This document shows, one piece after another, positions 13,266 to 30,919 of a DNA stretch of 51,081 nt. The DNA lies in the NCBI GenBank assembly GCA_027577415.1, contig JANBQS010000034.1:1-51081 (forward strand), written 5' to 3'. The position numbers and the translations under genes were made by a program. The notes beneath the pieces were generated by a model. The model had not been told where the DNA came from, searched no databases, and worked only from the letters and a program-made list of their open reading frames with translations. Origin of the DNA: Coemansia sp. RSA 922 (taxonomy: Eukaryota > Kickxellomycota > Kickxellomycetes > Kickxellales > Kickxellaceae). Position 1 is the first letter of the stretch. Every line of letters begins with the position of its first letter.

Positions 13266-13281
13266 TCTTGAATCAATCAGA

Positions 13282-13543: not shown

Positions 13544-15601
13544 ATGAATTCCGCTGAACACATTGTCTCGCCCTACGGCAGCTGGAAAAGCCCGCTCACT
13601 GCGGCATCCGTAGCCTCGGCATCAGCCAGCGTCAGCTCCGTGCTTATCGACCGCGCAACCAACCCGTCTCGCGTGTACTGGCTAGAGTCACGCCCATCAG
13701 AGGGAGGGCGTCGCACGCTACTGAGCAAGCTGGTAGACGACTACTCCGACGCCACGCTCATCGAGCACCTAGCTGACACCCAGTGGAACGTACGCACCGC
13801 AGTGCATGAGTACGGTGGCGGAGCATACGCCGTACACAACGGCATAGTAGTGTTTGCCAACTGGAGCGACCAAGGCATATACCTACTCGACACTCAGCAG
13901 GGTACGCCCAGGCGGATTGGATCATTGGACGACAAGCTTAGGTATGCGGCATTTGCTATACACCAGTCAGGCAGCTTTGTCGTATGCGTACGCGAAGATC
14001 ATCGCGACTCTGAGATCGAGGCTCCTGCGGCCCTGGTGGCTATTGCTTTGACTGTGTCGCAAGAGGCTACGCCTGATATTGTGCTATACAGGGGCTCTGA
14101 CTTTGTGTCGTCGCCAGCAATGAGTGTCAGTGACGAGATTGCCTTCTTTACGTGGAACCATCCAGACATGAACTGGGACGCTACCACTTTGTGGCGTGCT
14201 CAGCTTCTCATCGACAGTGGGCTGCCCACGGGCCTAGACCAGCTGAGGGCAGTGGCGGGCCAGACCGAGCGTGAGAGCATCTACCAGCCGCGATTCGATT
14301 CTGAAGGCACTTTGCACTTTATTAGCGACCGCGTTGGAGGATTTTGGAATCCTTACCACGTAAACACCAATGGCCAAGTTACACTGTCGCTGGCCCAGCC
14401 GATCGAGGAAGAGTTTGCTTCGCCCGAGTGGTCCTTTGGCGAGTCTACTATGCAGCCCGTGCCAGGACGCGCTCCCTGCGTAGCAGTCACTTATGGCGGA
14501 GAAGACGGCCAGTCCGTCTTGGGTATTCTGAATGTTGTCACTCACGTGTTCGATGAACTGCCAACGCCAGGGTGGTCTGTCTTGGGCGACTTTCAGTTTG
14601 GCACAACGCGGTCCGGCGAGCCTGTGCTGGTACTAGTAGCTGGCGGACCTACTGAGCCTCTGTCGCTGTTCACGTATTATATTAACGGTATGACTAGTAC
14701 TAGACTATCAGCCAAAAACTCTGCAGTAGATGAGATGGCTGGCTTTGTCTCTGTACCACGCACTATAGCTTTCCCCACCCGCCTACCATTTAACGAGTCG
14801 AGTGTAGCAGAGGCGTATGCTTATTTCTATCCGCCAACCAACCGCAACTACAAAGCTCCTGCTGACGAACTGCCGCCACTGTTGGTGCTGAGTCATGGCG
14901 GGCCTACGTCGGCCGCCCATGCCGTGTACCAGCCCAAGATCCAGTACTGGACGTCGCGTGGGTTTGCCGTAGTTGATGTCAATTACGGCGGGTCTACGGG
15001 CTATGGTCGTGCCTACCGCGAGCGCTTATATCCGCAATTCGGAGTAGTCGATGTAGAAGACTGCTGTGCTGCCGCTCTCCACCTATCAGCCACTGGTATT
15101 GTCGACCGGCACCGTTTGAGTATCATGGGCGGCAGTGCTGGTGGATTCACTACCCTAGCGTGTTTAGCATTCCGACCCGAGGTGTTTGCTGTTGGCGCCA
15201 GTCTCTACGGTATCTCCGATCTAGAGGTGTTGATTAAGGAGACACACAAGTTCGAGGCCCAATATCCCGTACATCTGGTGGGTCCGTATCCGGAGGCTCA
15301 GGCTGTGTATAAGAGTAGATCGCCTTTGTACTCGGTCGATACTTTGGCATGCCCGGCTATCTTTTTGCAAGGACTCGAGGATAAAGTAGTACCTCCTAAT
15401 CAGGCTGTTTTCATGGTGGAAAAGCTTAGGGAGAAAGGGATCAGAGTCGCGCACTTGGAGTTTGAGGGCGAGCAGCATGGATTCAGACAGGCTAAGAATA
15501 TCGTGAGGGCGTTGGAGGCACAGTTATTCTTCTTTGGAAAAATCTTAGGCTTCGTTCCAGCGGACCATATCGAGCCTGCAGTGCCAATTTACAACGAATA
15601 G
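13544..15601 (+). CDS. S9 family serine peptidase (prolyl oligopeptidase type)
   Basis: Predicted 685-residue alpha/beta-hydrolase peptidase. Near the N-terminus YGSWKSPLTA is a typical start of the cytosolic dipeptidyl/acylaminoacyl peptidase group. A beta-propeller region follows. The catalytic domain then carries LLVLSHGGPTSAAH, GGSTGYGRAYRERLYPQFG and the nucleophile motif GGSAGGF with Ser531. The charge-relay residues are Asp613 (GLEDKVVPP) and His645 (EQHGF). The enzyme should cleave dipeptides or acyl-amino acids from short peptides; no signal peptide is visible. The frame is open from a TTG at 13385 and another ATG exists at 13472. I chose ATG 13544 because the family similarity begins right after it. 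The gene is divergent from QCR2. Confidence 0.85.
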   Translation: MNSAEHIVSPYGSWKSPLTAASVASASASVSSVLIDRATNPSRVYWLESRPSEGGRRTLLSKLVDDYSDATLIEHLADTQWNVRTAVHEYGGGAYAVHNGIVVFANWSDQGIYLLDTQQGTPRRIGSLDDKLRYAAFAIHQSGSFVVCVREDHRDSEIEAPAALVAIALTVSQEATPDIVLYRGSDFVSSPAMSVSDEIAFFTWNHPDMNWDATTLWRAQLLIDSGLPTGLDQLRAVAGQTERESIYQPRFDSEGTLHFISDRVGGFWNPYHVNTNGQVTLSLAQPIEEEFASPEWSFGESTMQPVPGRAPCVAVTYGGEDGQSVLGILNVVTHVFDELPTPGWSVLGDFQFGTTRSGEPVLVLVAGGPTEPLSLFTYYINGMTSTRLSAKNSAVDEMAGFVSVPRTIAFPTRLPFNESSVAEAYAYFYPPTNRNYKAPADELPPLLVLSHGGPTSAAHAVYQPKIQYWTSRGFAVVDVNYGGSTGYGRAYRERLYPQFGVVDVEDCCAAALHLSATGIVDRHRLSIMGGSAGGFTTLACLAFRPEVFAVGASLYGISDLEVLIKETHKFEAQYPVHLVGPYPEAQAVYKSRSPLYSVDTLACPAIFLQGLEDKVVPPNQAVFMVEKLREKGIRVAHLEFEGEQHGFRQAKNIVRALEAQLFFFGKILGFVPADHIEPAVPIYNE

Positions 15602-15725
15602 TAGAAAATGACTCACTTTGTTTTGTCCCCCCCCCCTACATTCTTCAAGAACTCTTTGACTCACCTTTTTCTTTTTCTTCTTTATCTTTCACAAACTTTT
15701 ATATTCTAAACTTTTTTTATTAACC

Positions 15726-16637
15726 ATGGCAAACTCTTTTATCAATGCCTCGCTTCCCGATACTTCGGATCGCATGCTATTCGCAGTACCTAAAAAGGGT
15801 CGTCTATATGACCAGTGCCTAGGATTATTGAGTTCGATCGGTATAGAGTTTAATCGTAAACCACGTCACGATATCGCACTAGTAACGAACATGCCGATAG
15901 CACTAGTATTTCTACCTGCAGCGGATATCGCGACCTACGTAGCGAAGGGTAATATAGATATTGGTATTACTGGGTTGGACATAATAAGAGAATCACAGAC
16001 GGAGAACGACGTCGCTGAACTTTTACGTCTGGGTTTCGGTAAATGCAAACTACAAGTACAAGCTCCTCTCGGTCAGAGTCTAGTGGCGGAGGATTTGGTT
16101 GGTAAACGTATTGTTACTAGTTTTATCAACCTTACTAAACAGCGTTTCGCTCAACTCGAAGGCGTCGATCCCGAGAAGATAAAGACTCAGGTACGCTTCG
16201 TTTCTGGCAGTGTCGAAGCCGCTTGCGGGTTGGGTTTGGCGGACGGTATTGTGGATTTAGTGGAGTCTGGCGATACTATGCGTGCGGCTGGGCTGCACGC
16301 TATTGATACTATTTTGGAGACGGAATCTGTGCTTATTACTAATCAGAATCCGAGGTTTCCTGGGCTGGCAGAGACCATAAAGAAGCGTGTTGAGGGTATA
16401 TTGACTGCACGTCAGTATGTTTTGTGTCAGTATAATATTGACAGAAAGTCTTTGGATAACGCTTGTCTGATTACTCCGGGGAGACAGGCGCCTACTGTTA
16501 CTCCTTTGGAGAAAAATGGTTGGGTCGCTGTTAGCGTTATGGTTGAGAAGAAATTGGTCGGCGATAAAATGGACGCTCTTTCGGATATTGGCGCTACCGA
16601 TATATTGGTCTTGAATATTGCTAATGCTCGTGCCTAA
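15726..16637 (+). CDS. HIS1: ATP phosphoribosyltransferase (histidine step 1)
   Basis: Predicted 303-residue enzyme that condenses ATP and PRPP to phosphoribosyl-ATP, the first and feedback-inhibited step of histidine synthesis. The HisG core shows PKKGRLYDQCLGLLSSIGIE, a FLPAADIATYVAKGNIDIGI segment and VESGDTMRAAGLHAID, the PRPP-binding loop. The C-terminal regulatory domain characteristic of the long form is present (TVTPLEKNGWVAVSVMVE to the end), so histidine inhibition is expected. Length matches yeast His1 (297). The gene uses more A/T-ending codons than neighbouring QCR2. ATG 15726 lies in ACCATGG context after a CT-rich leader. The gene is convergent with the tRNA methyltransferase, with 51 bases between stops. 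Confidence 0.95.
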   Translation: MANSFINASLPDTSDRMLFAVPKKGRLYDQCLGLLSSIGIEFNRKPRHDIALVTNMPIALVFLPAADIATYVAKGNIDIGITGLDIIRESQTENDVAELLRLGFGKCKLQVQAPLGQSLVAEDLVGKRIVTSFINLTKQRFAQLEGVDPEKIKTQVRFVSGSVEAACGLGLADGIVDLVESGDTMRAAGLHAIDTILETESVLITNQNPRFPGLAETIKKRVEGILTARQYVLCQYNIDRKSLDNACLITPGRQAPTVTPLEKNGWVAVSVMVEKKLVGDKMDALSDIGATDILVLNIANARA

Positions 16638-16688
16638 AAGAAAAATACTTTCAATAATATATATTCATATTAACTCGTTATTAATACT

Positions 16689-17600
16689 CTACTCTTGTAA
16701 AGTACTTGATGTCGAGCATTTGCGTAGCTTGACAAGGAACGCTGTATGTCCGCCAGGCGTATGTGTAGGTCTACAGACAATTGCTTCATCGTTGGCTTCG
16801 TCAGGGTTGCGAATAGTCGTTGTGCGTACATCCCATTTACGCCAATCCACCTCTATAACATCTTCGACAAGTAAGGGCCAGGGCTGACAAGCGCGAACCA
16901 AATCAATAACCTGCGACATACTAGGCAAATAACACACCACGTATCTATCAGGTTTAAGGTATCCGAATACACTGGGTAACTGTGTCCACGGCATAGGCAT
17001 ATCCAGTACCACGCCATCGAACTGCGAGTCAACCGACTGTACTATCATATCTATGGTCTCTGAGAGTACGCCAACGTGAAACGAAATCGATGGTAGAAGT
17101 ATGCCATTTCTAAACTCTTTGACTATTTGCTTGGCATGCACCGATCGCTCTTTACTCCTCTCCACTGTATGCACTATACCACCTGCTCTGGCTAAATGCA
17201 TAGTTAATCCTGCATTCCCCGTCCCAGCCTCCAGTATTTTGTCACCCGCACCGATATCCAGCATACTTATTATCGTCGATGCGTCCTTTGGGTATATCGG
17301 CGTGCATTGACGCTTGCAGTGTAGTACGTATTCTTCTAGTGTCGGCTGGTGGATCATGAATTGACCTCCGGATCCGGAGTTGGTTTTGGTGGAGACGCGG
17401 TCACGAGAGTTTACTCCAATTATATCGGTGTGGTGAAGGTTGCCGACTCGTGAGCCATGGATACGACCGGGTGTCAGTGGTCCGAGAAGGGTAGTTTTGC
17501 CGCCACGCGAACAGTCTCGGACTAGAACTACATCTCCTTCTTTAAAAGTACTGAAACTACGTCGAAGAATGCCAACACGCCTGTATGCTACTGCCCACAT
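16689..17600 (-). CDS. tRNA (adenine-58-N1)-methyltransferase, mitochondrial type
   Basis: Predicted 303-residue S-adenosylmethionine-dependent enzyme of the TrmI/Trm61 family. An N-terminal beta-barrel (EGDVVLVRD, residues 21-29) is followed by the hallmark QPTLEEYVLH and YPKDASTII segments. The Rossmann SAM-binding motif I is ILEAGTGNAGLT (122-133), with motif II HTVERSKER and motif IV VVLDMPMPW (the family Asp-Met-Pro). The C-terminus has VEVI-type DVIEVDWRKWDVR as in m1A58 methyltransferases. The first 18 residues (MWAVAYRRVGILRRSFST) are basic and lack acids, suggesting import into mitochondria, similar to animal TRMT61B. The frame extends upstream from a non-ATG codon; ATG 17600 is the natural start. 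Confidence 0.85.
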   Translation of the reverse strand: MWAVAYRRVGILRRSFSTFKEGDVVLVRDCSRGGKTTLLGPLTPGRIHGSRVGNLHHTDIIGVNSRDRVSTKTNSGSGGQFMIHQPTLEEYVLHCKRQCTPIYPKDASTIISMLDIGAGDKILEAGTGNAGLTMHLARAGGIVHTVERSKERSVHAKQIVKEFRNGILLPSISFHVGVLSETIDMIVQSVDSQFDGVVLDMPMPWTQLPSVFGYLKPDRYVVCYLPSMSQVIDLVRACQPWPLLVEDVIEVDWRKWDVRTTTIRNPDEANDEAIVCRPTHTPGGHTAFLVKLRKCSTSSTLQE

Positions 17601-17758
17601 TCTTGAACAATAGAAAAAAATAACGTTGAAAAAATTTTCAATAAAAAAAATACATCTCCACCCCCCCAAAAAAAAACCTTTTATTCTGGGTCTTTTTCAG
17701 ATTTCCAATATCGGATTAGTATATGGGCATTATCTCTTAATTTATTTACAAAAGACGG

Positions 17759-18061
17759 CTACCAAGTTGCAGATACTTTATACGACCGAATAGGACCATC
17801 CACGTCCTGCCAGTTGGGATTGTTAATAGAAGCAACAGCTATCACCTCATTCTGGCAATTTTCATCGCTGTAAAACGTTGTCTTGTGTCCGCTGATTGCT
17901 ACTTGGTTACCGCTTTTTAGATAAATTTCTGGTGTCGTATGACAGTCACTGTCGCGCACTTTGTATAACTTGGAAGTAGCTGTATTCCTTATACCGACAT
18001 TTGTCAAACCATACACGCCGAGCAGGAAGCTGGAGAGAGCGAATAAAACATGAAAACGCAT
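17759..18061 (-). CDS. Small secreted protein, possible beta-gamma-crystallin-like fold (copy 1)
   Basis: Predicted 100-residue protein with a signal peptide (MRFHVLFALSSFLLGVYG). The mature part has two cysteines (C40, C69) that could pair. The paralogue at 20824 has the same length, start (MRFHVLFA) and C40/C69 positions, and ends alike (GPIRSYKV against GPIRSFKV). The segment TTFYSDENC followed 22 residues later by SYKV resembles one Greek-key motif of beta-gamma-crystallin and killer-toxin-like small secreted proteins. That assignment is inference. The role is unknown; cell-wall or extracellular action is possible. The frame extends far upstream without ATG support; the signal peptide decides the start at 18061. 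Confidence 0.65.
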   Translation of the reverse strand: MRFHVLFALSSFLLGVYGLTNVGIRNTATSKLYKVRDSDCHTTPEIYLKSGNQVAISGHKTTFYSDENCQNEVIAVASINNPNWQDVDGPIRSYKVSATW

Positions 18062-18829
18062 ATTGGTATAAAATAGATGGGAATGAGGTTGAAGAGAGAA
18101 AAAAAAGATGATTATGCACTTTTGACAAGTTGAGAAAACGCTATAAAAACTGCGCCAAAAAAAATGAGAGAAAAAAAAACGCTGGTCTATATTAGAAAAC
18201 GTCGTTACAGCTTTACTGCCTTCTATCACGAATATAAAAAAAATATATCCCTCCCTTTTGATGTGCGAGTCGATCTTGAATCTGAAAGGATTTGATTGTT
18301 CTCTTTGTGAAGACGTGTAGTAAACGCCGAAAACGGACGAGTCGCCTTCTCTGAATATCTGTTTCCCATTTGACCCGGTGCATGGTGATCCTCTCGAGCG
18401 AAAAGCATTAGAATGTTCTTTTTTACCCACTGTCCTTTTATAAATAAAAAATAAAGTGTACCAAAAATCAAAAAAAACGGAAGGATCGCTGCCTCGTGAA
18501 CATCCGTTTCCTCACCTGAATCAATGAGATCCACGTATGTTTATAGAGTATTTCGCTCTATCAGGCGTTATTGCCCGCACACTCATAATTCCAGAGTGTG
18601 AACTGGCGTTTATTATTGTTGAAAAAATAAACCAACCGTGAAACCGGAAACCTAGTCACCTTTCCTCATAGGGACTATGAAAAAAAAAGTACCCACCCCA
18701 TCAGCACTACTAATTTGGTATTATTTAAGTGTATTTTCTGAACCACGCGCTGTTTCATTCCTTTTAGAATATCTGTTTCCTAGAAAACAAAGAGTAATAG
18801 ACATGTACCTATTTTAATAACGTGATAAT
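18062..18829. other. Intergenic region upstream of secreted protein copy 1
   Basis: This 768-base region holds the promoter of the secreted gene and the 3' flank of the Trx-like fragment. It contains a GCTATAAAAACTGCGC string (18140-18155, + strand) like the TATA region of the Trx-like gene at 22528, but in the other orientation. There is also a 7-bp inverted repeat CACACTC/GAGTGTG (18578-18600). No gene is supported. Confidence 0.4.
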
Positions 18830-19093
18830 TCACCTGGACACTTTTTCGGCACAGTTACCCACTTGGTTGGCCAGTATCCTTGCTTGGGCGGCATAGGGAA
18901 TAGATTTAAATTCAGTAGATATTCTAAATGTCCGTTTATAGAGGTATCCGCCAAGTTCGCTACTCTTGCTACCAGCGAGCAAAACCACGTAAAGTCTGTT
19001 GTTATTGTTATGATGTACTATCAGGGAGGTTATTCCATCGGGGATTTCCAAAATATCTCTTAGGCAATAATAAAGCATGCAAATACGTACTAG
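18830..19093 (-). pseudogene. Truncated thioredoxin-like family gene (C-terminal half)
   Basis: The reading frame from about 19093 to 18830 encodes the last 88 or so residues of the family represented intact at 21923-22408. Shared stretches include LLYY, YVVLLAGSKSSELGG and LYKRTF. The NQVGNCAEKV ending matches NRVGNCAGEV. The N-terminal half is absent. Similarity stops within about 8 bases of the left edge of the GST repeat (19099), whose partner copy starts at the last codons of the glucanase gene. This looks like a deletion joining the middle of a Trx-like gene to the end of a lost glucanase. The frame continues to 19141, but those codons (MIRIKTMPIFGFTLK) come from the GST block and are not family sequence. 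Probably not functional. Confidence 0.7.
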
Positions 19094-19225
19094 CCACTTT
19101 AAAGTAAAGCCAAATATCGGCATTGTTTTTATTCTTATCAAAGGAACTACTAGAGAACTTTATAAAGAAAGATATGCCACATTTGGCCTTGTCAAAAATT
19201 AATCCATGGATAGATCAATTTTAGT

Positions 19226-19864
19226 TTACCACTGGCAGGTGCTCATGTACTTGACGAGCTTGGAGTCCTTCTCCATCGTGGTCATGACGTTGTTCATCAG
19301 GGGAGCGTTCTTCTTGTTGAATGGCTCCAGCATCTCAGGCATGCCCTTCAGAGTGCAGCGGATAGCACACAGGGTACCGAGGAGCGCCAGATCGATGTAG
19401 GTAGTCTTGTTGCCAAAGTAGTGGCCAGTGGATCCGTTCTCCTTCAGCCACTTCTCCTGGTAGGTGACGACGTCCTTGGCCAGGGTCATGAAGCGCTGGA
19501 TAAAGTTCGTGCGAGTGGTGGGCTCGGTGATGTTGACAATGAGCTGAGTCATCTGGAACAGGTCGTTCAGTTGGTTACGGAGCTCGGTCTGGCGGGCCAC
19601 CATCTGGCGGTCCTGCTCGGGAACGCAGAGGTTGTACTTGCACACGAGGTACTGCTCAATGGCCAGAGAGTCAGAGAGGATGAAGCGGGTTCCATCCTTG
19701 TTGGTCTCGACGAGGACGGGAAGCTTGCCGATGGGCTGGTTGATCTTCTCCTGGGGCCACTGGGGAGACTCGAGAGTCCACTTGGCACCGGTGTACTCGA
19801 GGATGGCCTTGCATGGCTCGGCGCGGCCGGGAGCCTGGAAGTGACGAAGAGTGTAGATCGACAT
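19226..19864 (-). CDS. Glutathione S-transferase, copy 1
   Basis: Predicted 212-residue cytosolic GST. The N-terminal thioredoxin fold carries Tyr4 (SIYTLRHF), the GRAEP motif (13-17), the cis-proline segment GKLPVLV (P49) and the glutathione-contacting SDSLAIEQYL (64-73), typical of sigma-like or related classes. The all-helical C-terminal domain follows. Length is usual (200-220). It conjugates glutathione to electrophiles or acts as a peroxidase; the substrate is unknown. Copy 2 at 25232 differs at only six residues (I45V, Y77H, S201V, S208D, Q211E, W212C), four of them in the last 12. A TATA box lies about 100 bases upstream. Confidence 0.9.
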   Translation of the reverse strand: MSIYTLRHFQAPGRAEPCKAILEYTGAKWTLESPQWPQEKINQPIGKLPVLVETNKDGTRFILSDSLAIEQYLVCKYNLCVPEQDRQMVARQTELRNQLNDLFQMTQLIVNITEPTTRTNFIQRFMTLAKDVVTYQEKWLKENGSTGHYFGNKTTYIDLALLGTLCAIRCTLKGMPEMLEPFNKKNAPLMNNVMTTMEKDSKLVKYMSTCQW

Positions 19865-19958
19865 GGCTTGAGATTGGAGGAGAGTTGTTTTTTGTTTGGA
19901 TTGGATTGATAGAACTGGTGATGTTGTGATAGATGAAATGGACAGGCGGAGAGTGTTG

Positions 19959-19966
19959 CTTTTATA
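19959..19966 (-). promoter_or_regulatory. TATA box of GST copy 1
   Basis: TATAAAAG on the minus strand about 95 bases before the ATG at 19864. It is conserved in the second GST copy. Confidence 0.55.
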
Positions 19967-20823
19967 CGTAGAAACTTGTTTATATTGCTAGCGAACACCT
20001 TTTTCCTCCGCGTTGTAGGATTAGGTATTTATTTTGTCCAAGCGAGAGGGTGGGAAAACAAAAGTATGCACATGCGTACCCTTTATTGCTGTTATATTGA
20101 AGCGAGTGCGTGCCTCTTTTTGAAAATGGCATGTCCCCTTGGAGCCCCTTTTCCCTCTCTGCCTCACTCAGTGCGACTAGTGTGCAGATATGCCCGCATT
20201 CGAGTAGAAGAATAATCAATTGTAGATATGCACTACGTATTCGGGCACATATGTACGAGACTGAAAGGGGAGAGAGAAAAGGGGCGCCCTATCAGAACTA
20301 GACATGTCCAGCTTCTCCCCTGCATATACGCGGGTAAGGGGTGTGCGTGCTTTGCATACTTTGTCTATAGATAATGTGTTGTTGTGGAATAATTGCCTGA
20401 TACTGAGGCACAATGGAGCGGAGGGAGAACACCTTCTCTGCGAAGATAAGCAAGAAATAGATTAGGGTCCGAGATGCAGAGACATCTTGTACAGAAGACG
20501 ATACCTTACCCTCAAATATTAGATCAATGGTGTAGCTAATTTAACTAATTCAAGCGATAATCGACGGATAGCAAGCTACTTACCTGACATTCTGAGCAAC
20601 ATCGGATGAGTGCTCCAGGTGCAAGCTGTTGCGAATGCTGTGCTCTGAGGAGCTGCAGGATGAGTTGCAACTCCAAGTCACATCATGGGGCGTAGTTAAG
20701 TGTCTCATATATGTTTTTTATTCTGAGCTGCGTACTCTTTCCTTTCCTACAAATTATCTCACCAGCAGTATTTTAGGCCATCATAGCAACTATCTCTTAT
20801 TTTATTATTGTATTACCAAAAGA

Positions 20824-21126
20824 CTACCCTCTTCCATTGACTTTAAATGACCGGATAGGGCCGGGGAAGGTATACCACCCGCTTGGGTTGCCGGCAGCAA
20901 TCTCTGCCACTTTATAAATACAGTTTGCGTCTGCGTAAAAGGCTGTACCGTATCCGGCGATTGCAAGTTTGAGCTGCCCTATATTGAAGGTTGTCCCCAA
21001 GCTTCGGCATTTACCCATGAGATCCTCGACACACTTATTCTTGACATCATCGAGTACGCAGACATATGTCGAGCTGCACACGGTAAACAGGAGGCCGAGG
21101 ATAGCGAATAGGACGTGGAAGCGCAT
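20824..21126 (-). CDS. Small secreted protein, possible beta-gamma-crystallin-like fold (copy 2)
   Basis: Predicted 100-residue secreted protein, paralogue of the one at 17759. The signal peptide is MRFHVLFAILGLLFTVCSS. The mature region has C23, C32, C40 and C69; C40 and C69 match copy 1, while C23 and C32 are extra and could form a second disulfide. TAFYADANC and GPIRSFKV align with TTFYSDENC and GPIRSYKV in copy 1, which is the best-conserved part. The spacing and pattern resemble a beta-gamma-crystallin half motif (inference). The low identity outside this region, with equal length, suggests fast evolution of a secreted factor. Function unknown. Confidence 0.65.
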   Translation of the reverse strand: MRFHVLFAILGLLFTVCSSTYVCVLDDVKNKCVEDLMGKCRSLGTTFNIGQLKLAIAGYGTAFYADANCIYKVAEIAAGNPSGWYTFPGPIRSFKVNGRG

Positions 21127-21922
21127 AACGATTGAAAGGGAGGGCGTAATGAAAAGGAGCTGGTAGGATGTTGGATAGAGAGGAGAGGAGGTGAAAAGTC
21201 AAGGGGTGCGGTTCTATTTAAGAAAAACGTTGTTGTAGTTTGGCCACTGCATCGCCAAAATAAATGTGAACTTGAGGCAGACACTAAGGCACTTGCGTCA
21301 ATCCTAAAGCAGAAATCATTAGGATACTGTGTCAATGAGTTGCTTTGTAAGAACAGGTATCCAGTGGGAAAAAACAATAACAAACAATATCCCCACCAAA
21401 CAAATACCCGTTTCCTGTGTGATCCAATGGGTTATCAAAGCGTGTTCATGGGAGTACTTTACTATTGTAGGATCGACAGATCGCAGCGGTGAACGATCCC
21501 ACTTTCCGGTTTTGTGATCGGTCCACCACCCAACTGAATGATCCTTTAATGTTTACGACTAGCGCTACTGCGCCACGACCTTACTTATAAAGGGACCGTG
21601 CACGGAATACTGGCTTAGGTTTCTTTATCATTACTTCTATAGCTTTTATTATTTATTTAATACGAGACATTAGAACGGTGGCTTAAGCTAACGCCAAATA
21701 AGTTAGATACTACACATCTACATTTACTATTAATAGTTATATGTATTATTTAGTACAGGCTGTACATGCTTGATGGCTCAGTTCAGTCTTTATTTTTAAG
21801 CTAACAATATCCTATAAAAGCTATTGAACTGATTTTAAGTAAGCACACTATTGGAGATGCTAGAATATTTGTTTCCTAGAAAACAGGGAGTAATCGACAT
21901 GTACCCGTTTTAACAAAGTGAA
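21127..21922. other. Intergenic region between secreted protein 2 and Trx-like gene
   Basis: These 796 AT-rich bases include the promoter of the secreted gene (right side of 21126) and the 3' flank of the Trx-like gene. A GGATCG...CGATCC inverted repeat lies near 21471-21500. I see no RNA gene and no coding frame worth reporting. Confidence 0.4.
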
Positions 21923-22408
21923 TCAGCACCTGGGCACTTCACCAGCGCAGTTACCCACTCGGTTGGCTAGTACTCCTGCATGGTTACTATGGGTGATAGA
22001 TTTAAATTTGTTAAATGTTTCAAATGTCCGTTTATAGAGTTCTCCACCAAGGTCGCCACTCCTGCTACCAGCGAGCAAGACCACATATTCTTTGTTGTCA
22101 GCGTTGTGATTTACTATCAGGGTGTTCACTTCATCGGAGATCTCCACAATGTCTTTTCCTCTATAGTAAAGCAAGCAAGCCTGCACCACATTTATTTCCC
22201 GCATGACACGATTTCCGTCAGGATCCGTAAAATAATCAAGGTTAATGAGTCCGATAGGCATCTGTAGCCTATCATAAAATGGTTCTAGTGTCAAAATCTT
22301 CTCCTTGGTGTCCCTGTAAATGAAAATAGCTACCTCATTCGTGGAATCTATAAACTTTGCATACTGTTCTATGTTCTCGATAATTGCATCTTCATAGTTG
22401 GATGGCAT
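21923..22408 (-). CDS. Thioredoxin-like small protein without CxxC (copy B, intact)
   Basis: Predicted 161-residue protein of a family with three members in this window (also 18830 fragment and 49068). Residues 25-60 (EVAIFIYRDTKEKILTLEPF then IGLINLDYF) and 77-90 (ACLLYYRGKDIVEI) follow the strand-helix-strand order of a thioredoxin fold: a FxxF-like strand, a variable loop where the CxxC would sit (here YRDTKEK), a partner strand, and the YxxGK turn. No redox cysteine pair is present, so if it is Trx-like it is not a disulfide reductase. No signal peptide. The C-terminus (YVVLLAGSRSGDLGG and later GVLANRVGNC) is family-specific. The frame continues upstream to 22792 without resemblance; ATG 22408 matches the start of the 49068 copy. 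Confidence 0.6.
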   Translation of the reverse strand: MPSNYEDAIIENIEQYAKFIDSTNEVAIFIYRDTKEKILTLEPFYDRLQMPIGLINLDYFTDPDGNRVMREINVVQACLLYYRGKDIVEISDEVNTLIVNHNADNKEYVVLLAGSRSGDLGGELYKRTFETFNKFKSITHSNHAGVLANRVGNCAGEVPRC

Positions 22409-22527
22409 TGTTGGTGGCCTGCAAATAAAAGCTAATAGTATTGGTGGTAAAAAAAAAGAATAGAGTGGAGAGAAAGAGAAAAGAGAGAGAAAAGCCAGAA
22501 GCGGATGGTGGGCACGAGCGCAGTTTT

Positions 22528-22535
22528 TTTTTATA
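22528..22535 (-). promoter_or_regulatory. TATA box of Trx-like gene
   Basis: TATAAAAA on the minus strand, 120 bases before the ATG at 22408, within GCTATAAAAAAAACTGCGC. Confidence 0.45.
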
Positions 22536-22550
22536 GCAATGGTGGACTTG

Positions 22551-22563
22551 CTCCAGTCAACGC
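22551..22563 (-). promoter_or_regulatory. Shared promoter element CTCCAGTCAACGC (copy 1)
   Basis: The 13-base string CTCCAGTCAACGC lies 143 bases before the Trx-like ATG. A TGATTGTAC string follows at 22588-22596. The same pair, with the same order and similar spacing, lies upstream of the related gene at 49068-49541. This is either a conserved regulatory site or leftover identity from duplication. Confidence 0.5.
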
Positions 22564-22950
22564 TAGAAAAAGGATTGGGCCGTGTGGTGATTGTACAGAA
22601 ACACAGCGGACTTTGAAAATGCACGTGCCAAAGGGGAGGATGGCATTTTGGGGGTAGGCAAAGAAGCCGACAAAGCAAAAAGGCGAGACAAAATATCCAG
22701 TTAGAGCCAGTGAAAAGGCAAAAGGCGACTAAAAAGGGCCAATTTGAGCAAGTGGAAATTGCTGCGGCCAGGCCAAAGCTTTTAGTTGGCAATAGTTCCT
22801 ACAAGGATTTGTCCTGTATTAACCGACACATGTACCAGCTCAGTGATCGGCAATGCGGATTGGGGTTGGAATACGGATTCCACAAAGCTCTTGAACTCCA
22901 CATTTGCCGTCCTTCACCTTTACTCGCGTTTTTTATTTTTTGCATTTTAA

Positions 22951-25116
22951 ATGCCGCTGTCTGACAGAATTCGCAAATTGGCAGAAAAGTTTTCTGGTGC
23001 TCCAGTAGGACTCGACGAGCATCGGAGTCAGCCTGCGCTACCTCCACGACGGACACCAGCACCTAATAGTAGCCAAGCACCGATGGCTTTGACTGAACGA
23101 GAGGAGGTTCAACCGCGAAACGATACCCCAGTCTCGCCATGGTCGACACCTGACCCTAGGGCCATTCTGGGCAGCCGAGTAGGGACCAACTCGTACCGAA
23201 TCAGCCATGACCTGATAGGCCCCAGTCTGACGTGTAAGCCAGTTCCTACCAACGCGTGGTGGCAGAACCTGGTACTTGAGCAGGGTGATCAGCCCGTAGT
23301 CATGACGCCATATATGGTCAAATGCCTGGACTCGGCAGTCGTGGTGTGTGCGCAAACACCGCTAGTGCATGAGACCTATGTGGCAGCGATATGGCATGAC
23401 GACTGGAGAGTGCACATCGACGGATGCTCGAGGCACAGCGTAACTACATTCGACCCCCTGTCTGCTACCGTAGAGTACACGGGCGAAACGATGGCGGCCA
23501 GAGTTCCGCTTGTCAGGGGTGCAGCGTTTGTGACTGTTATGTTCGATACGCCTGTTCAGCTCTCGCTGTCTACGGTTCACGCAGTTATTGGAGTTGACCA
23601 GTGTAGCGGAGAAGGGACCGCTGTAGCCAGGCTTAACAGTGGTACGACGTGGCTAGTCAGCTGCGATAGCCCAGTCGAGTTGCAGCAGAGCGGAGTCTCG
23701 GGATTAGTTTCTAGCGGCCCCGTAGGTGCTGTGCGGCTGGCTCTGGTCAACGATGAGTGTCCACAAGCGCTAGCAGCGCTATTGCTCGCCAAAGATTCAA
23801 TCCCAGTGGGCGGCACAATTGATGTCACTGACGAGGCTTCGTTTACGTTGCGCTGGATCACACATGGCAGCGGGCCATCCGACCATCTGCTTATGTTTGC
23901 ACTTCCACACCACCAGCAGTCGCTGACCGATGCTTGCTGGGTCGACGATGTTGGCAAATACTGGACCAGCATGGGCCATGTGCGTGCGGTACGGGGATCG
24001 CAGTGGCAGTGGACCGAGACTATTGAGCCGCTGGGATTCTCAGGACAGAGCGAGCTGAGCGAAGAGGACAAGGCAGTGCTGCGTGAGTTAGTGCAGGCTG
24101 ATGCCAGTACGTTGCCCGAGGACTGTGGTGTGCTGCCGCCAGATCCTTATTTCTTTGGCAAGGCTGTGGCGCGTGCTATGCGCATTGCACTTATTGCAGA
24201 CGAGGTAGGCGATACCGCCAGCTGCAATCTAGCAGTCGAGCGAGCAAAGTCGTGGCTGGTGCCCTGGCTGGACGGTACTAATCCCGATTACTTGCTGTAT
24301 GACGACGAGTGGAAGGGCGTGGTTAGCTCGCGTGGCCTGACCGACCCCGCTGCTGATTTCGGCCAGGGGCGATACAACGACCATCACTTCCACTACGGCT
24401 ATTTCATCTACGCCGCAGCGGCACTAGCCAAGCTCTGCCCCGAGTGGATCGAGGAAAGGCGCGAAGCCTTTGACCTACTGGCCCGCGACTACTGCGACCC
24501 ATCTAATGCGGACGAGTACTTTCCGTTTATGCGCTGCTTTGACTTTTACGAAGGCCACTCAGTCGCCAGCGGCTTGTTTGCCTTTGGTGATTCGCGGAAC
24601 CAAGAGTCAACATCCGAGGCCATTAACGCCTATTACGCCGCGTATCTTTATGCCCAGGCGACTGGTCGCCAGTCGATTGCTCGGTATACTCGTGCTATCC
24701 TTCAACTTGAGGCTCGCTCGTCGCGGGTATACTGGCATTTGGGCGACTTGGCGTCAGACGTTTATCCTGAGACTTTTGCAAGGGGTCGTGCGGTCGTGGG
24801 CATATTGTGGTCGAGTAAGGCTGATTTTGCGACATTTTTCGGTGCTAACCCAGAGTTTATCTACGGTATTCAGTTTTTGCCGTATACGCCGGCCATGACT
24901 CTATTGCTGAAGCGACAGTGGGTCGCTGACATTTGGCCCAAATTCTTGGAGCAAGTAGCAGATGGTTCGGCGACTGAGTCATGGCGGGAAATTATCAACT
25001 TGGCGTATGCCGTAGTCGACAAACAAGTGGCCAAAGATCGTGTTAGCAAAGTCACTGAGCATGATGATGGCAACTCTGCGTCAAATTCTTATTACTGGAT
25101 AGCAACGTTAAAGTAA
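22951..25116 (+). CDS. GH81 endo-beta-1,3-glucanase, intracellular type
   Basis: Predicted 721-residue glycoside hydrolase that cleaves internal beta-1,3-glucan bonds. GH81 signatures are clear: PTNAWWQNLVL near residue 100, then YNDHHFHYGYFIYAAAAL with the catalytic Asp477. Further on come FDFYEGHSVASGLF and NQESTSEAINAYYAAYLYAQ with the conserved Glu552 and Glu556. The N-terminus is polar and lacks a signal peptide, like cytosolic Acf2/Eng2-type enzymes, so roles in spore or septum glucan turnover or storage glucan use are more likely than secretion. The final codons (LK and stop) coincide with the left edge of the GST repeat block, which suggests that the glucanase 3' end was part of an older duplicated unit. 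No intron is needed. Confidence 0.9.
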   Translation: MPLSDRIRKLAEKFSGAPVGLDEHRSQPALPPRRTPAPNSSQAPMALTEREEVQPRNDTPVSPWSTPDPRAILGSRVGTNSYRISHDLIGPSLTCKPVPTNAWWQNLVLEQGDQPVVMTPYMVKCLDSAVVVCAQTPLVHETYVAAIWHDDWRVHIDGCSRHSVTTFDPLSATVEYTGETMAARVPLVRGAAFVTVMFDTPVQLSLSTVHAVIGVDQCSGEGTAVARLNSGTTWLVSCDSPVELQQSGVSGLVSSGPVGAVRLALVNDECPQALAALLLAKDSIPVGGTIDVTDEASFTLRWITHGSGPSDHLLMFALPHHQQSLTDACWVDDVGKYWTSMGHVRAVRGSQWQWTETIEPLGFSGQSELSEEDKAVLRELVQADASTLPEDCGVLPPDPYFFGKAVARAMRIALIADEVGDTASCNLAVERAKSWLVPWLDGTNPDYLLYDDEWKGVVSSRGLTDPAADFGQGRYNDHHFHYGYFIYAAAALAKLCPEWIEERREAFDLLARDYCDPSNADEYFPFMRCFDFYEGHSVASGLFAFGDSRNQESTSEAINAYYAAYLYAQATGRQSIARYTRAILQLEARSSRVYWHLGDLASDVYPETFARGRAVVGILWSSKADFATFFGANPEFIYGIQFLPYTPAMTLLLKRQWVADIWPKFLEQVADGSATESWREIINLAYAVVDKQVAKDRVSKVTEHDDGNSASNSYYWIATLK

Positions 25117-25231
25117 AGCCAAACGTTGACATTGTTTTATTCTTATCAAGGGGACTACTAGGGAGCTTTAAGAAGATATACCACATTTTGCTTTGTCACA
25201 AATTAATCCATGGATAGACCAATTTTACAGC

Positions 25232-25870
25232 TTAGCACTCACAGGTATCCATGTACTTGACGAGCTTGACGTCCTTCTCCATCGTGGTCATGACGTTGTT
25301 CATCAGGGGTGCGTTCTTCTTGTTGAATGGCTCCAGCATCTCAGGCATGCCCTTCAGAGTGCAGCGGATGGCACACAGGGTACCGAGGAGCGCCAGATCG
25401 ATGTAGGTAGTCTTGTTGCCAAAGTAGTGGCCGGTAGATCCGTTCTCCTTCAGCCACTTCTCCTGGTAGGTGACGACGTCCTTGGCCAGGGTCATGAAGC
25501 GCTGGATAAAGTTCGTGCGAGTGGTGGGCTCGGTGATGTTGACGATGAGCTGAGTCATCTGGAACAGGTCGTTCAGCTGGTTACGGAGCTCGGTCTGGCG
25601 GGCCACCATCTGGCGGTCCTGCTCGGGAACGCAGAGGTTGTGCTTGCACACGAGGTACTGCTCAATGGCCAGAGAGTCAGAGAGGATGAAGCGGGTTCCA
25701 TCCTTGTTGGTCTCGACGAGGACGGGAAGCTTGCCGACGGGCTGGTTGATCTTCTCCTGGGGCCACTGGGGAGACTCGAGAGTCCACTTGGCACCGGTGT
25801 ACTCGAGGATGGCCTTGCATGGCTCGGCGCGGCCGGGAGCCTGGAAGTGACGAAGAGTGTAGATCGACAT
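25232..25870 (-). CDS. Glutathione S-transferase, copy 2
   Basis: Predicted 212-residue GST, six residues different from the copy at 19226. It keeps the same Tyr4, GRAEP, GKLPVLV and SDSLAIEQYL elements. The difference at position 77 (His for Tyr) is in the glutathione domain; V201, D208, E211 and C212 change the C-terminal end, which in many GSTs caps the substrate pocket, so specificity may differ slightly. The gene lies tail-to-tail with the GH81 glucanase (115 bases between stops). The promoter, including the TATA box at 25969-25976, is conserved, so both copies are probably expressed alike. Confidence 0.9.
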   Translation of the reverse strand: MSIYTLRHFQAPGRAEPCKAILEYTGAKWTLESPQWPQEKINQPVGKLPVLVETNKDGTRFILSDSLAIEQYLVCKHNLCVPEQDRQMVARQTELRNQLNDLFQMTQLIVNITEPTTRTNFIQRFMTLAKDVVTYQEKWLKENGSTGHYFGNKTTYIDLALLGTLCAIRCTLKGMPEMLEPFNKKNAPLMNNVMTTMEKDVKLVKYMDTCEC

Positions 25871-25968
25871 GGCTTGAGATTGGAAAAGAGAGAGCTGTTT
25901 TTTGTTTGGATTGGATTGCTAGGACTGATGATGTTGTGATAGATGAAATGGACGGGCGGAGAGTGTTG

Positions 25969-25976
25969 CTTTTATA
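25969..25976 (-). promoter_or_regulatory. TATA box of GST copy 2
   Basis: TATAAAAG on the minus strand about 99 bases before the ATG at 25870, in the same context as copy 1. Confidence 0.55.
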
Positions 25977-26570
25977 CGTAGTAATCTGTTTATATTGCTA
26001 ACGAACACCTTTCCTCCGCGTTGTAGGATTAGGTATTATTTTGTCTAAGCGAGAGGGTGGGAAAATAAAAGTATGCACATGCGTACCCTTTATTGCAGTT
26101 ATATTGAAGCGAGTGCGTGCCTCTTTTTGAAAATGGCATGTCCCCTTGGAGCCCCTTTTCCCTCTCTGCCTCACTCAGTGCGACTAGTGTGCAGATATGC
26201 CCGCATTCGAGTAGAAGCATAATCAATTGTTGATATGCACTACGTATTCGGGCACATATGTACGAGACAACGAAAGAGGAGAGAGAAAAGGGGCACCCTA
26301 TCAGAACTACACATGTACAGCTTCTCCCCTGCATATACACGGGTAAGGGGTGTGCGTACTTTGCATGCGTTGTCTATAGATAATGTGTTGTTGTGGAATA
26401 ATTGCCTGATACTGAGGCACAATGGAGTGGAGGGAGAATGCCTTTTCTGCGGAGATAAGCGAGAAATAGATTAGGGTCCGAGATGCAGAGGCATCTTGTA
26501 AAGAAGAAGGCGATACCTTACCCTCAAATAGATTAAGGATGTAGCTAATTTAACTAATTCAAGCGATAAT

Positions 26571-27752
26571 GGCCCGATTCCGGCTACATTCCCCAATCCT
26601 CCTCACTAGAATCAGGTCAGATTATGCTTACGATCGTCGGATGGGGAATGTATATTTGCTGCAGAGGTTGTTGAGGCTGGTAATCCTAGTTGAGCAGTAG
26701 CTCGGTGAAGGTAACAGCAAAGGCATGATTCACAATATGAATAATTGTAGGCATGAGTATCGCCAAGAAGAATCATTGGTAACACAACTTGGCGCCAAAT
26801 AAGCAAAAAAAAAAAAATTGAAGTGTACGCCGACAGCTATTTATAACAGCAAGGCACATGATTTAGGAGTAAATAATGGAGGTGGAGGACAATGACCTAG
26901 TGGAAAGGGGGAGCGATGCCAAGAGATTTGGGGGTTAGCTGAATGAAAAAGCTCGGTTCTCCGCAACACAACAATAGACAGTTTAGACAATTCACCGCAG
27001 CCACCCCCACTTCCCCCTCCTACAAGAACTAACTATGCGGACTTGGCGCTTACGTGTTGTCACGTCTGGTGGCTTTTCAAGTCATCAAGGGCATAAAGGA
27101 GATATCTTTGTGGTGAACTGGTTATCAACGTGAGGGCAGAAGTTCCATCGTGGAAACAGGAATTTGGGTGGACGAAAAGGGGAAAAGGATCGTCCGAAAG
27201 AGATGGGAAGCTAGCCAATAGCGACATGGACATGCGTGCAAATCGGGCAAAGGGGAAGTGCATGCGAAATACACAGAAAGCGAGAAGCCATGATTTCCTA
27301 TTTTTACGCATCTTTTTGGCAGAAAGATGTGCCAAGCTAGTCCCCCCCAAAAGGGAGAAGGGGAAAAAAAGCTTGAAAGAAGCTAAAAGAAGGGAGGCCT
27401 ACTGATGGCAAAAACGGATAGGCTGGAAAGGGAGAGGCTTAGAATAGCAAACATCACGCCAAATAATAAAAAGTTCATCGACGGTGCAGCAAGACTGGGT
27501 CATTTTTTCTTCTTTCTCTTCCACGTTTTACATATCTCTGCTATTTGCATCTACCTTTTTTCATTCTATTTATTTGGCTTCATCAACTCTTTCCGTGTGG
27601 GGTTTATAAAAAAAGCCTGCTCAACCTACTTACGCCTCGCATATTCACACAAGCCTTCTATCGAGGCGTTTCTCAGACCAAATAGAAAAAAAAAAGTCCG
27701 CAACCCTAAAGGTTGACAATCCGCTCTCGTTTTTCCTTCGTTCGTATTTGTA
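26571..27752. other. Intergenic region right of the GST repeat
   Basis: These 1182 bases begin at the abrupt edge of the GST repeat and end at the second SMS-like gene. They hold an inverted repeat (26585-26652), an A run near 26803-26815, a TATTTATAA string near 26839, and a CT-rich leader before 27753. Small ORFs on both strands are low-complexity or lack resemblance. I see no RNA gene. Confidence 0.4.
26585..26652. repeat. Inverted repeat beside the GST block edge
   Basis: TACATTCCCC (26585-26594) and its exact complement GGGGAATGTA (26643-26652) flank a 48-base spacer. Pairing can extend inward with one mismatch (AATCC against GGAT). It lies 15 bases from the edge of the GST repeat and could form a hairpin or be a mobile-element footprint. 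Confidence 0.45.
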
Positions 27753-28949
27753 ATGGGCCGGTGGTTAGACTGCTGCAGTTCGTTTGACGGGCGGCTGGTG
27801 TTGCGCGAAGCCGCGCATACGGGACTAGCATGGACGGCGTTGGCGCTAGTGACAGTGTGGATGGTGATATGCCAGGAGTGGTCAGACATGCGGTGGGTTC
27901 AGTCGCAAGCGGCTCATGCCGGGAGGCACGGCGAGCGGAGCAGCGAAGGCGGTCTCCTGTATGACGTGATATTGGCCAGGCTGCCGTTTGTGCGGGAAAC
28001 CTGGGTGACTGACCTCCTAGTAAACACTGCGGGACTCGCCTGCGTGCTCGGCTCCCTGTGTATGGCGCGGTCCTGGCAGGCACGCAGCATTCTCATTCGG
28101 CGTGTGGCATGGATGATGGCCGCCCTGTACCTCCTGCGGTCGTTCACGCTGTCTATCACTACGCTGCCGCCCTCGGTAGCGGACTGCAAGCCCGTGGTGG
28201 CGACAGAAAATGCCGGACTAATGGGGCCCATTCTAGGACTAATCTCGGGAAGACTCAGTGCGTGTACTGACAAGATGTTCTCAGGACACACTACCATTCT
28301 TGTTATTTCCTTTTTGTTCTGGCGCCGCTATGCCACCCACTGGGCTTTCCTCGTCTACTCTGCTGTTCACACTGCTGCGGGTGTCGCTAGTATACTTTTA
28401 GTGCGTCTGCATTACTCTGTTGATGTGCTTTTGGCCGTTGTGCTCACTTGCGCTGTGCACCATGTGTACTACCGCTCTTTGGATGCTGCTATCCGTCGTC
28501 GTCGTCGTGCTTCGTCGCTGCGTCATCGCCGTAACCGTAGTTTGTTTACTGACCCTGATGACATGCCGCTTGGAGCCGATGCTACTTATGTGCGTGTTGA
28601 TGTGGATGACGACGAGGTGCCGACTTCGGGCGATGCCCTGGCGCGCTTGTTTGGTCGCCGCATGACGCACCGCCGTGACGGCAGTATCGACGTGGCACTG
28701 GACGCTGCGCAGCCTCCTAGTGACTCGGCACATACACTTAATAACTCGCCGGTACTGGATGCTGCTCATGTCGTCGATATGGAGAAGGCTGCTGTGGCCC
28801 TGGCGGCTGCTGCGGCTGTCGCGGAGCCCTACTACTCGTCCAATGTCTTGGATGACGAAGATACTTTAGCACTAATGGCTATTAACCGCCCTCTGGGCTC
28901 GGCACTACCTGCACTCGTCGGCTGGCTCGACGGCTTGCATCTGCGCTAA
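27753..28949 (+). CDS. Sphingomyelin-synthase-like (PAP2-type) membrane protein 2
   Basis: Predicted 398-residue paralogue of the protein at 9814. It keeps the catalytic signature: LRSFTLSITTLPPS (residues 128-141), CTDKMFSGHT (171-180) and HYSVD (220-224). The WSDMRW segment near residue 43 and the C-terminal NRPLGSALPALVGWLDGLHL are also shared with copy 1. Several membrane helices fill residues 20-240; the hydrophilic tail is shorter than in copy 1. Headgroup donor and lipid acceptor are unknown. The gene has GC-rich codons, while copy 1 uses many A/T-ending ones, so the pair is old or under different expression demands. ATG 27753 follows a CT-rich leader. Confidence 0.8.
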   Translation: MGRWLDCCSSFDGRLVLREAAHTGLAWTALALVTVWMVICQEWSDMRWVQSQAAHAGRHGERSSEGGLLYDVILARLPFVRETWVTDLLVNTAGLACVLGSLCMARSWQARSILIRRVAWMMAALYLLRSFTLSITTLPPSVADCKPVVATENAGLMGPILGLISGRLSACTDKMFSGHTTILVISFLFWRRYATHWAFLVYSAVHTAAGVASILLVRLHYSVDVLLAVVLTCAVHHVYYRSLDAAIRRRRRASSLRHRRNRSLFTDPDDMPLGADATYVRVDVDDDEVPTSGDALARLFGRRMTHRRDGSIDVALDAAQPPSDSAHTLNNSPVLDAAHVVDMEKAAVALAAAAAVAEPYYSSNVLDDEDTLALMAINRPLGSALPALVGWLDGLHLR

Positions 28950-29192
28950 CACTTGATACATATACAGATATAATTTTCCCCCCTACTTTATCGTCTTCAT
29001 ACAGTTGTATGCATCGTTCTTTTTGTTAAACAAATTCCACGTGATACCATCCCCCCAGCCAATGACTGATTGCAATGTCACTAGGGTCTTTGTAGTTCAA
29101 AAAAAGCAGAAGAGGAAGAAAAAAATGTTTTTCTATTCTGTTAAATTTGGTTATGCTTCTATTTGTTGTCATTTTATAATTTCTAGGACGAA

Positions 29193-30590
29193 ATGGGCTT
29201 GTTTTCCTTCTTTAAGCGAGACGAGAATTACGAGCAAATTCTCTCGTCTCTCGAGCAAGAAATTCGGCGATCCGAAACCCAACGACTCGCCTGCCTTGCT
29301 CGTGTCGAATGGTGGGCCAGCAACTGGCTCTTTTACATGTCTGTTACGTGGGTAGCATACCTGGCTGGTTTCATATTTTACGTATGGCCTGAAAGATACG
29401 GACGACAGGCACCAGTATTTTTGGTTCACTTGGTTTCTGTCATACTTATCCCCGTATTTATCTACTATGGCGCTCGTGGTATTCGCTCGGTCGGTCAGCG
29501 CATCGTCTCGAGGCATGATAGAAAGATCGTGAAACTGAGAAAGGATTTGAAGGATCGGCTGGATGAGTTGAAGAAAAAGACCGCATTTGACTCTACTAAG
29601 AATCTTATTGACAGATACTCGGCTGGAGGCGGTGCCAAGCCTGACGAGGGTGTTGTACAGAAACCTGGGCCCCAGCCAAATGCCTTGTCTAAACTCAAGC
29701 AGCAGCAGCAGATTTTGGACGAGAAGAATCGCAGACGCACTATGCCCAATTTCGGCACAGCTGGAACTCGCACCGCTACTTCGGCTCCCGTTGGATCTGC
29801 TCCGACGTCGCCAGATCCCGTCTCTGGCCTCAATCCCAAGGGCGCTCCAGCCCAGCTCCCACGCAATCCTGGTCAGCTGCCGGGTGCTCAGCAACAGCAA
29901 CAGCCTCCTCCTCACTTTGCACTACCAGAAACCGGCGTAGTAAAGGTGACTCAGTCTTCGGGTCAGGCGCAGGCCAAATCGACGGCTGCTGCCACTGACT
30001 CTCGTCCATGGCTGGACAAGCTAGTCGACCAGCTTGTCGGCGACACATCTGGTGTTGACGAGAAATACGCGTTGATTTGCCGCCACTGCTACGCACATAA
30101 TGGCTTGGTCCTTGTCGACGAGATTAACGACATTCAGTATACCTGCCCTAAGTGCGGCAAGTTTAACCCTAGCAATCGAGCTATACGAGCTGCTGCCGCC
30201 GCGCCGGCTGCTCAGCCGCTCGACTACCAAAGCAGCAGGACTGTCGAGCATAGTGATCAAGGCGAGTCGGGGATTATCAGTTCCCGTGGCGACAATGATT
30301 TTCAGAATGCGCGCTCTACCGCTGTCGATGGCGACGATGGCGACGATTCGGCTGCCGAGTTTGATGTTAGCAAGGTCAACACTCGTCCGCGTAGATCTGG
30401 TCGCGCTGTCAGGGATACTTCTGCTCAGCCAGTGTCTGCTGTCACATCCGATACCGAGGGCCATGACTTGAAGCCGCAGCAGCCAGAGCAACCGCCGCAA
30501 ACTGGGCACCCGACTGACACTGTCCCGCAACAAAAGCAAAAGCTCACGCCCAAGAAGCGCAAGGGCAACAAAGCCAAGCGCTCTCTATAA
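29193..30590 (+). CDS. LNP1: Lunapark-type ER three-way junction protein
   Basis: Predicted 465-residue ER membrane protein. It begins MGLFSFFKRD, with a glycine suited to N-myristoylation as in animal Lunapark, followed by a short coiled coil (residues 11-40). Two membrane segments form a hairpin (about 42-64 and 74-93), then a second coiled coil (about 105-130). A long Pro/Gln-rich region leads to the zinc ribbon C296-x2-C299 ... C318-x2-C321 that defines the family, and a basic disordered tail follows. Known role: stabilises three-way junctions of tubular ER, opposing the atlastin/Sey1 fusion machinery. It is larger than yeast Lnp1 (278). A TTTCTAG just before the ATG could be a 5'UTR splice acceptor, but no donor is fixed. 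Confidence 0.9.
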   Translation: MGLFSFFKRDENYEQILSSLEQEIRRSETQRLACLARVEWWASNWLFYMSVTWVAYLAGFIFYVWPERYGRQAPVFLVHLVSVILIPVFIYYGARGIRSVGQRIVSRHDRKIVKLRKDLKDRLDELKKKTAFDSTKNLIDRYSAGGGAKPDEGVVQKPGPQPNALSKLKQQQQILDEKNRRRTMPNFGTAGTRTATSAPVGSAPTSPDPVSGLNPKGAPAQLPRNPGQLPGAQQQQQPPPHFALPETGVVKVTQSSGQAQAKSTAAATDSRPWLDKLVDQLVGDTSGVDEKYALICRHCYAHNGLVLVDEINDIQYTCPKCGKFNPSNRAIRAAAAAPAAQPLDYQSSRTVEHSDQGESGIISSRGDNDFQNARSTAVDGDDGDDSAAEFDVSKVNTRPRRSGRAVRDTSAQPVSAVTSDTEGHDLKPQQPEQPPQTGHPTDTVPQQKQKLTPKKRKGNKAKRSL

Positions 30591-30919
30591 GCACTAGTGC
30601 ACTAGTTTTTTTTATTTTTGTATTGCATTCATTGCTTCTACGCGATTCTATCACTAGCACGGCATGTTGACTTGGTGGCCGCAGTCAAGTCATACATTAA
30701 CTGTATGTGTGTGTTATTTTGTATTTAGACTGTCTTTTTGGCCCCCCTTTATTCCCTTTGTGGTGTAAAAAGCTCAACAGGTTGAAGGACACAAAAAGGC
30801 AAGGAAAACAGCCGCCCACATATTTTTTCTTCTTCTTTTTCTAGTTTCCCTAGTGTGTTTTCTTTATATTCTACCCTACCAAACATTTTTCTTATTACTT
30901 GTGTGTTTTAAACCAAGCC
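30591..30919. other. Intergenic region before the DUF4246 gene
   Basis: These 329 bases hold the Lunapark 3' end (a T-rich stretch after GCACTAGTGCACTAG) and a CT-rich leader before the ATG at 30920. No other feature is visible. Confidence 0.4.

Follow-up and report, generated by a model that had tools for sequence, protein, structure and literature searches.

Gene content of the two units

The window analyzed here is the whole of contig C34 (JANBQS010000034.1; 51,081 bp) of Coemansia sp. RSA 922, and the genome searched comprises 20.4 Mb in 960 contigs. Between 17.7 and 26.6 kb of the window, two units lie side by side in identical orientation. Unit A contains, all on the minus strand, a gene for a small secreted protein (sec1), part of an orphan gene, and a glutathione S-transferase gene (GST_A). 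Unit B contains sec2 (−), the intact orphan gene (−), a GH81 glucanase gene (+), and GST_B (−). The shared gene order and orientation, proposed in an original prediction made from the letters alone, is borne out by the open reading frames and by a BLASTN comparison of the window with itself. One diagonal, 1.49 kb long, crosses the GST block (19091–20569 matching 25100–26578, 93.8% identity, E = 0.0). The prediction had named a diagonal outside the GST block as the check to be made, and one is present over the 3′ half of the orphan gene: it is 318 bp long (18765–19082 matching 21861–22178, 77.0% identity, E = 5.5e-65).

The two units differ in length. Unit A lacks a 2.9-kb segment (22187–25099 in unit B) that takes in the orphan gene's first 74 codons, the 542 bp between the orphan and GH81 starts, and all of GH81 except its last codons. 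The absence of the glucanase and of the 5′ half of the orphan gene had been predicted correctly, and the last GH81 codons are still there. What remains of the orphan gene in unit A (18765–19090, −) is its 3′ part from about codon 74, as seen in the BLASTN match and in a protein search with stop counts. Beside the deletion junction, 19093–19107 (+) reads ATLK-stop, like the GH81 end at 25102–25116 in the translation and in a four-way junction alignment.

The missing segment and the second contig

A second contig, C346 (20,417 bp), is 94.2% identical to window positions 1741–21466 and colinear with them for 19.7 kb. Like C34, it carries both units (the four copies are called A34, B34, A346, and B346 below). 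In the four-way alignment, both units of C346 are of the short form, with the same junction. At B346, C346 positions 19671–20134 correspond to window 21723–22186 and, directly after, 20135–20417 correspond to window 25100–25387. The long form is seen in one of the four unit copies, unit B of C34, and in all three short copies the GH81-end sequence abuts the same orphan-gene codon. Because the short copies retain the end of GH81, and because the paralogue of the orphan gene is full length, the long form would be ancestral and the short form a deletion, which probably happened once. Insertion of GH81 into unit B was rejected on the strength of those last codons, which are still present in the short copies.

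If a heterozygous repeat had been collapsed or misjoined in assembly, apparent units of different length would also result, and the assembly is indeed fragmented, with C346 ending within the GST repeat. On the other hand, the short junctions differ in sequence, the orphan-gene parts of the two units are 23% apart, and C346 follows the window colinearly for 19.7 kb. At the B346 junction both flanks are B-like, so it is not a misjoin into A. An assembly artefact appears improbable to us.

C346 probably represents the other haplotype of a heterozygous genome; it may also come from a second strain in the culture or from a second type of nucleus. A further contig, C153, begins at about window position 30102 (95% identity over 620 bp) and carries a relative of the orphan gene found at 49 kb of the window. 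Its resumption on the far side of the block, together with that relative, fits a second haplotype. In PMC10386755, Kickxellales genomes are described as smaller than 40 Mb, and diploids among zygomycetes as commoner than expected, from genome sequences; this fits two haplotypes and is no proof of them. C153 matches 30102–30730 but not the following 2 kb or so (30731–32700), which holds a DUF4246 gene and may be another presence/absence difference.

Two points weigh against so simple a count of forms. C346 runs out within GST_B and C153 begins only at about 30102, which leaves some 4.7 kb of the second haplotype out of sight, with room for more. An intact GH81 allele would also be missed if it sat on a short contig, as would any allele on contigs below the smallest ones encountered, which are just above 10 kb (e.g., C944, 10,143 bp). 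No second-haplotype contig was seen for 25388–30101, and a DNA search with 18765–26578 turned up, among the best 40 of 53 candidates, no further copy of the block's GH81 or GST genes.

The two contigs differ also by a dispersed repeat of 258 bp in unit B (21465–21722), which resembles a solo long terminal repeat and is absent from the matching site in C346. It has at least 40 further matches in the genome and ends in TGTAG...CTACA. Of 17 other copies, five show an exact 5-bp target duplication, and three had an end badly placed by the script; the window copy has a duplication of 8 bp. A tRNA-derived short interspersed element was considered and rejected, given the TG...CA ends and no Rfam or tRNA match there; there is no Rfam match anywhere in window 16500–28000.

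Probable exchange and decay, and selection

GST_A (19226–19864, −) and GST_B (25232–25870, −) each encode 212 residues with a GST fold and are 97% identical; GST_B is 98% identical to a relative from Coemansia sp. S3946. In Pfam, GST_B is over the cut-off for both GST_N_3 (7.9e-5) and GST_C_3 (9.7e-5), and GST_A is over it for GST_C_3 (2.6e-5) and just under it for GST_N_3 (3.9e-4; 21.1 vs. 22). The best solved matches are sigma-class-like GSTs (PDB 2wb9, named sigma class, 2on5, and 1gsq), with E values of 1e-9 to 4e-8 over residues 3–182. Both proteins have His8 where, in the alignments to 2on5 and 2wb9, the solved proteins have a tyrosine, which we take to be the catalytic Tyr at the end of strand 1. 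His8 is present in the three complete copies here and in four close Coemansia relatives. Tyr occupies position 8 in all 13 of the more distant database rows with an N-terminus (out of 18 database rows in all, of which P0007 lacks the N-terminus) and in all eight translated places drawn from 17 other GST places in this genome. The ratio of nonsynonymous to synonymous divergence (dN/dS) is 0.06 for GST_A between the contigs and 0.20–0.27 for the GSTs between units, values that indicate purifying selection. The product would be a GST-fold protein that is conserved but changed at its active site. Elsewhere in the genome, C227 and C517 hold a tandem GST gene cluster and look like two haplotypes of it.

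Synonymous divergence (dS) between GST_A and GST_B on C34 is 0.060, below the between-contig values of all five flanking genes (0.098–0.22) even though each contig has both units, which suggests gene conversion. The homogeneity extends upstream: 19865–20569, upstream of GST_A, is 94.6% identical to the region upstream of GST_B (25871–26578, the right end of the duplication), vs. 92.2% between A34 and A346. The sites themselves form a mosaic. Where one of three sequences stands apart in the GST block, it is A346 at 45 sites, B34 at 50, and A34 at 21. All 16 informative sites in the 3′ part of the GST gene follow the unit. A346-only sites stand to B34-only sites as 8:28 over the 3′ and coding sequence and as 37:22 upstream of it (Fisher P = 1.4e-4), with a cut near the start of the coding sequence that was chosen after the sites had been inspected; without the last 150 columns, the shift is from 8:28 to 19:15 (P = 6.5e-3). 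In the 3′ half of the orphan gene, 11 informative sites follow the unit, four the contig, and 10 are crossed, and they are clustered (runs P = 0.011).

Exchange between units and between contigs appears to account best for these mosaic sites, and gene conversion would be the cause of the GST homogenization. Three observations speak against this. GST codons are strongly biased (a third-position GC content of 0.84), which alone lowers dS; dS for GST_A between the contigs is likewise low (0.068); and a faster divergence of A346 upstream could mimic conversion.

The orphan gene follows another course. Its family in this genome consists of two intact genes and three remnants. The intact gene of unit B (21923–22408, −) encodes 161 residues. 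The other intact gene lies outside the block (49068–49541, −), is full length (157 residues), and is 28% identical to the unit B protein; its form on C153 is 97% identical, with a dN/dS of 0.18 over 149 residues between the contigs. Compared with the intact copy of unit B, dN/dS of the remnants is 0.79 (A34), 0.82 (A346), and 1.06 (B346), and two of the three, A346 and B346, contain stops. The remnants look like pseudogenes. This is tempered by the frame of A34, which is still open, and by the comparisons among remnants: these give dN/dS values of 1.11, 0.52 (A346–A34), and 0.37 (B346–A34), the last two below what neutral decay predicts.

The protein had been proposed to be thioredoxin-like, of a non-redox type, and this identity was not confirmed. 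Neither intact protein contains a CxxC motif. In Pfam there is no thioredoxin match, the sole match up to E = 10 being DUF3378 (0.18), and a genome search with PF00085 found 24 places, none at the orphan genes. An hhalign run of a two-sequence profile against six thioredoxin domains from this genome gave a probability of 1.6% (E = 0.03 for one comparison), with an alignment spanning residues 16–50 and the CxxC region. A single-sequence structure model has a mean confidence score (pLDDT) of 39. No relative at E ≤ 0.01 was found among 5.8 billion proteins (10 candidates). On these sequence comparisons, we would call it an orphan family.

Origin of the block and its meaning

The secreted proteins are the least similar part of the two units. 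sec1 (17759–18061, −) and sec2 (20824–21126, −) each encode 100 residues, with a hydrophobic N-terminus, and are 34–35% identical at the protein level only (34% in the direct comparison of the frames), with no BLASTN match. A genome search with sec1 finds at least 41 places at E ≤ 0.1, and 37 of these remain at E ≤ 0.001. sec1 and sec2 on C34 and C346 account for four of the 41; the other 37 are on 25 other contigs. Contigs with at least two members are C37, C316, C242, C833, C606, C116, C345, C67, and C95. The relative from Coemansia sp. S610 (P0003) is 56–57% identical to sec1, and a partial protein of 74 residues from Coemansia sp. RSA 2673 (P0002) is wholly contained, letter for letter, in sec2 of C346. 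Between the contigs, sec1 is 93% identical with a dN/dS of 0.27, and sec2 has a dN/dS of 1.19 (about 30 changes in 231 sites vs. 7.7 in 69), a point estimate without a test against 1; the flanking genes have 0.03–0.06. Both proteins belong to a large family, seen in this analysis in Coemansia. Profiles of the family give a best E of 0.42 in the PDB and, for one of 19 members, 0.013 in Pfam, with nothing in common; a structure model has a pLDDT of 50, and none of its 35 Foldseek matches reaches E ≤ 0.001. A beta-gamma-crystallin identity, guessed from a motif, finds no support in these Pfam and PDB profile searches. Among the papers searched, none combines “Coemansia” and “small secreted proteins.”

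The shared duplication stated in the original prediction holds for the GST block and for the 3′ half of the orphan gene. The part of the secreted pair in it is uncertain because of the low identity, the lack of a DNA match, and the size of the family. The pair has diverged much further than other parts of the units, and sec1 is nearer to the S610 protein than to sec2, which weighs against a single duplication of everything. In a tree of 20 loci and P0003, the partner of sec1 is the S610 protein (90/76), with sec2 attached to the two weakly (79/88), so that the split between sec1 and sec2 looks older than the split from S610. The split may stem from the same duplication, with the GST part homogenized since, or from an older event. 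In a history of two steps, an old tandem pair of secreted genes would have existed first, and the orphan gene, GH81, and GST would have been duplicated later between its members; the contrast between the secreted pair and the 94% identical GST blocks, and the grouping of sec1 with S610, favor this. sec1 and sec2 stand, however, at matching positions on the same strand in both units, they are joined in the tree, if weakly, and homogenization of the GSTs after one event gives an equal contrast. We hold the two steps as a serious possibility, somewhat short of even; they would refine the reading of the block given below and are compatible with deletion and exchange.

GH81 (22951–25116, +) encodes an endo-β-1,3-glucanase of 721 residues. 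It matches Glyco_hydro81C (9.7e-91) and Glyco_hydro_81 (2.9e-29) in Pfam, at 305 and 102.7 bits vs. cut-offs of 25.6, and the solved GH81 structure 4k35 (E = 1.2e-61); solved GH81 enzymes align over about 250–560 residues. The motifs DHHFHYGYF at 477 and NQESTSE at 550 (DHH and QExxxE) align with 4k35 and presumably hold the catalytic acids. The N-terminus is Pro-rich, with PALPPR at residue 28, and by hydropathy it is not hydrophobic (an 11-residue maximum of 0.35 vs. 2.25 for sec1). In a protein search, the only other GH81 gene of the genome is on C102, with a hydrophobic N-terminus that by eye looks secreted.

Fission-yeast Eng2 is not known to have a signal peptide. In PMC8429772, Eng2 is a GH81 protein that works as a hydrolase in spore dehiscence and also belongs to the endocytic machinery; its role in polarity needs the N-terminus with a Pro-rich region, not the glucanase activity, and its SH3-type motifs are given as RxxPxxP and PxxPxR. 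The protein here shares the GH81 domain and the Pro-rich N-terminus, and PALPPR fits the PxxPxR given for Eng2, although so short a motif may arise by chance; the likeness is one of domain and motif. By analogy with Eng2, the most likely site of GH81 action is intracellular, at the cortex and in the breakdown of the wall that frees the spores.

The four genes had been proposed to form a functional system for stress, cell wall, or interaction. They are physically close, and the orphan gene and GH81 are head to head over 542 bp (22409–22950), which could co-regulate those two. Joint function of the block is otherwise unsupported. GH81 is on the opposite strand and present, like the intact orphan gene, in one of four unit copies, with remnants of the latter in the other three that are near neutrality against the intact copy; the selection regimes of the genes differ. 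GH81 lacks the hydrophobic N-terminus that the sec proteins have. None of the 25 other contigs with secreted-family hits has a hit to the other three families, and outside C34 and C346 no contig had hits to two of the four, a weak test as contigs are short. With no co-occurrence in that weak test and two of the four genes lost from three of the four units, a required joint function is unlikely, and the proposed system as a whole seems to us very improbable.

Related genes in pairs occur elsewhere in the window. PAP2_C genes of opposite orientation flank the block on either side (9814–11304, −, and 27753–28949, +). Two AMP-binding-like genes (39662–41341 and 45439–47004, both −) are 45% identical over 405 residues, with the family named by eye. 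An open frame with ketoacyl-synthase domains alone (34719–36564) is matched in at least 16 places on other contigs at 73–91% identity.

We consider it likely that the block arose by local tandem duplication, in a genome that is heterozygous or drawn from two strains, and that deletion, exchange between copies, and the decay of pseudogenes then reshaped it. The starting unit would most likely have been secreted protein, orphan gene, divergent GH81 gene, and GST. A single 2.9-kb deletion would have joined orphan codon 74 or thereabouts to the last codons of GH81, and exchange between copies would have spread it, so that the short form now occupies both seen units of one putative haplotype and unit A of the other. 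Both GST genes and their upstream regions would have been kept and homogenized by gene conversion, as the orphan remnants decay. No shared pathway is needed to explain the block. Arrays of tandem genes that evolve in concert and include pseudogenes are a known pattern, and the block resembles them in its side-by-side copies, its mosaic sequence, and the homogenization of one gene next to the decay of another. It differs from them in that the deletion state varies between two near-allelic contigs, as if the process had been caught while polymorphic.

A presence/absence haplotype that distinguishes strains, as an incompatibility or defense locus would, is a far-fetched reading in our view. If true, its parts would be the His-for-Tyr GST clade, an Eng2-like glucanase and an orphan protein expressed from a shared intergenic region, and the fast-changing sec2 (dN/dS of about 1.2).

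For the likelier history of duplication and deletion, the locus offers a small, clean case in an early-diverging fungus: three of the four near-allelic copies share one deletion, and a homogenized gene stands beside a decaying neighbor. Two further leads emerge: a clade of Coemansia GSTs that carries a changed active site and is held by purifying selection, and an orphan family in which two genes are intact. The block would be an ordinary but instructive hotspot of gene families rather than a new multi-gene system.

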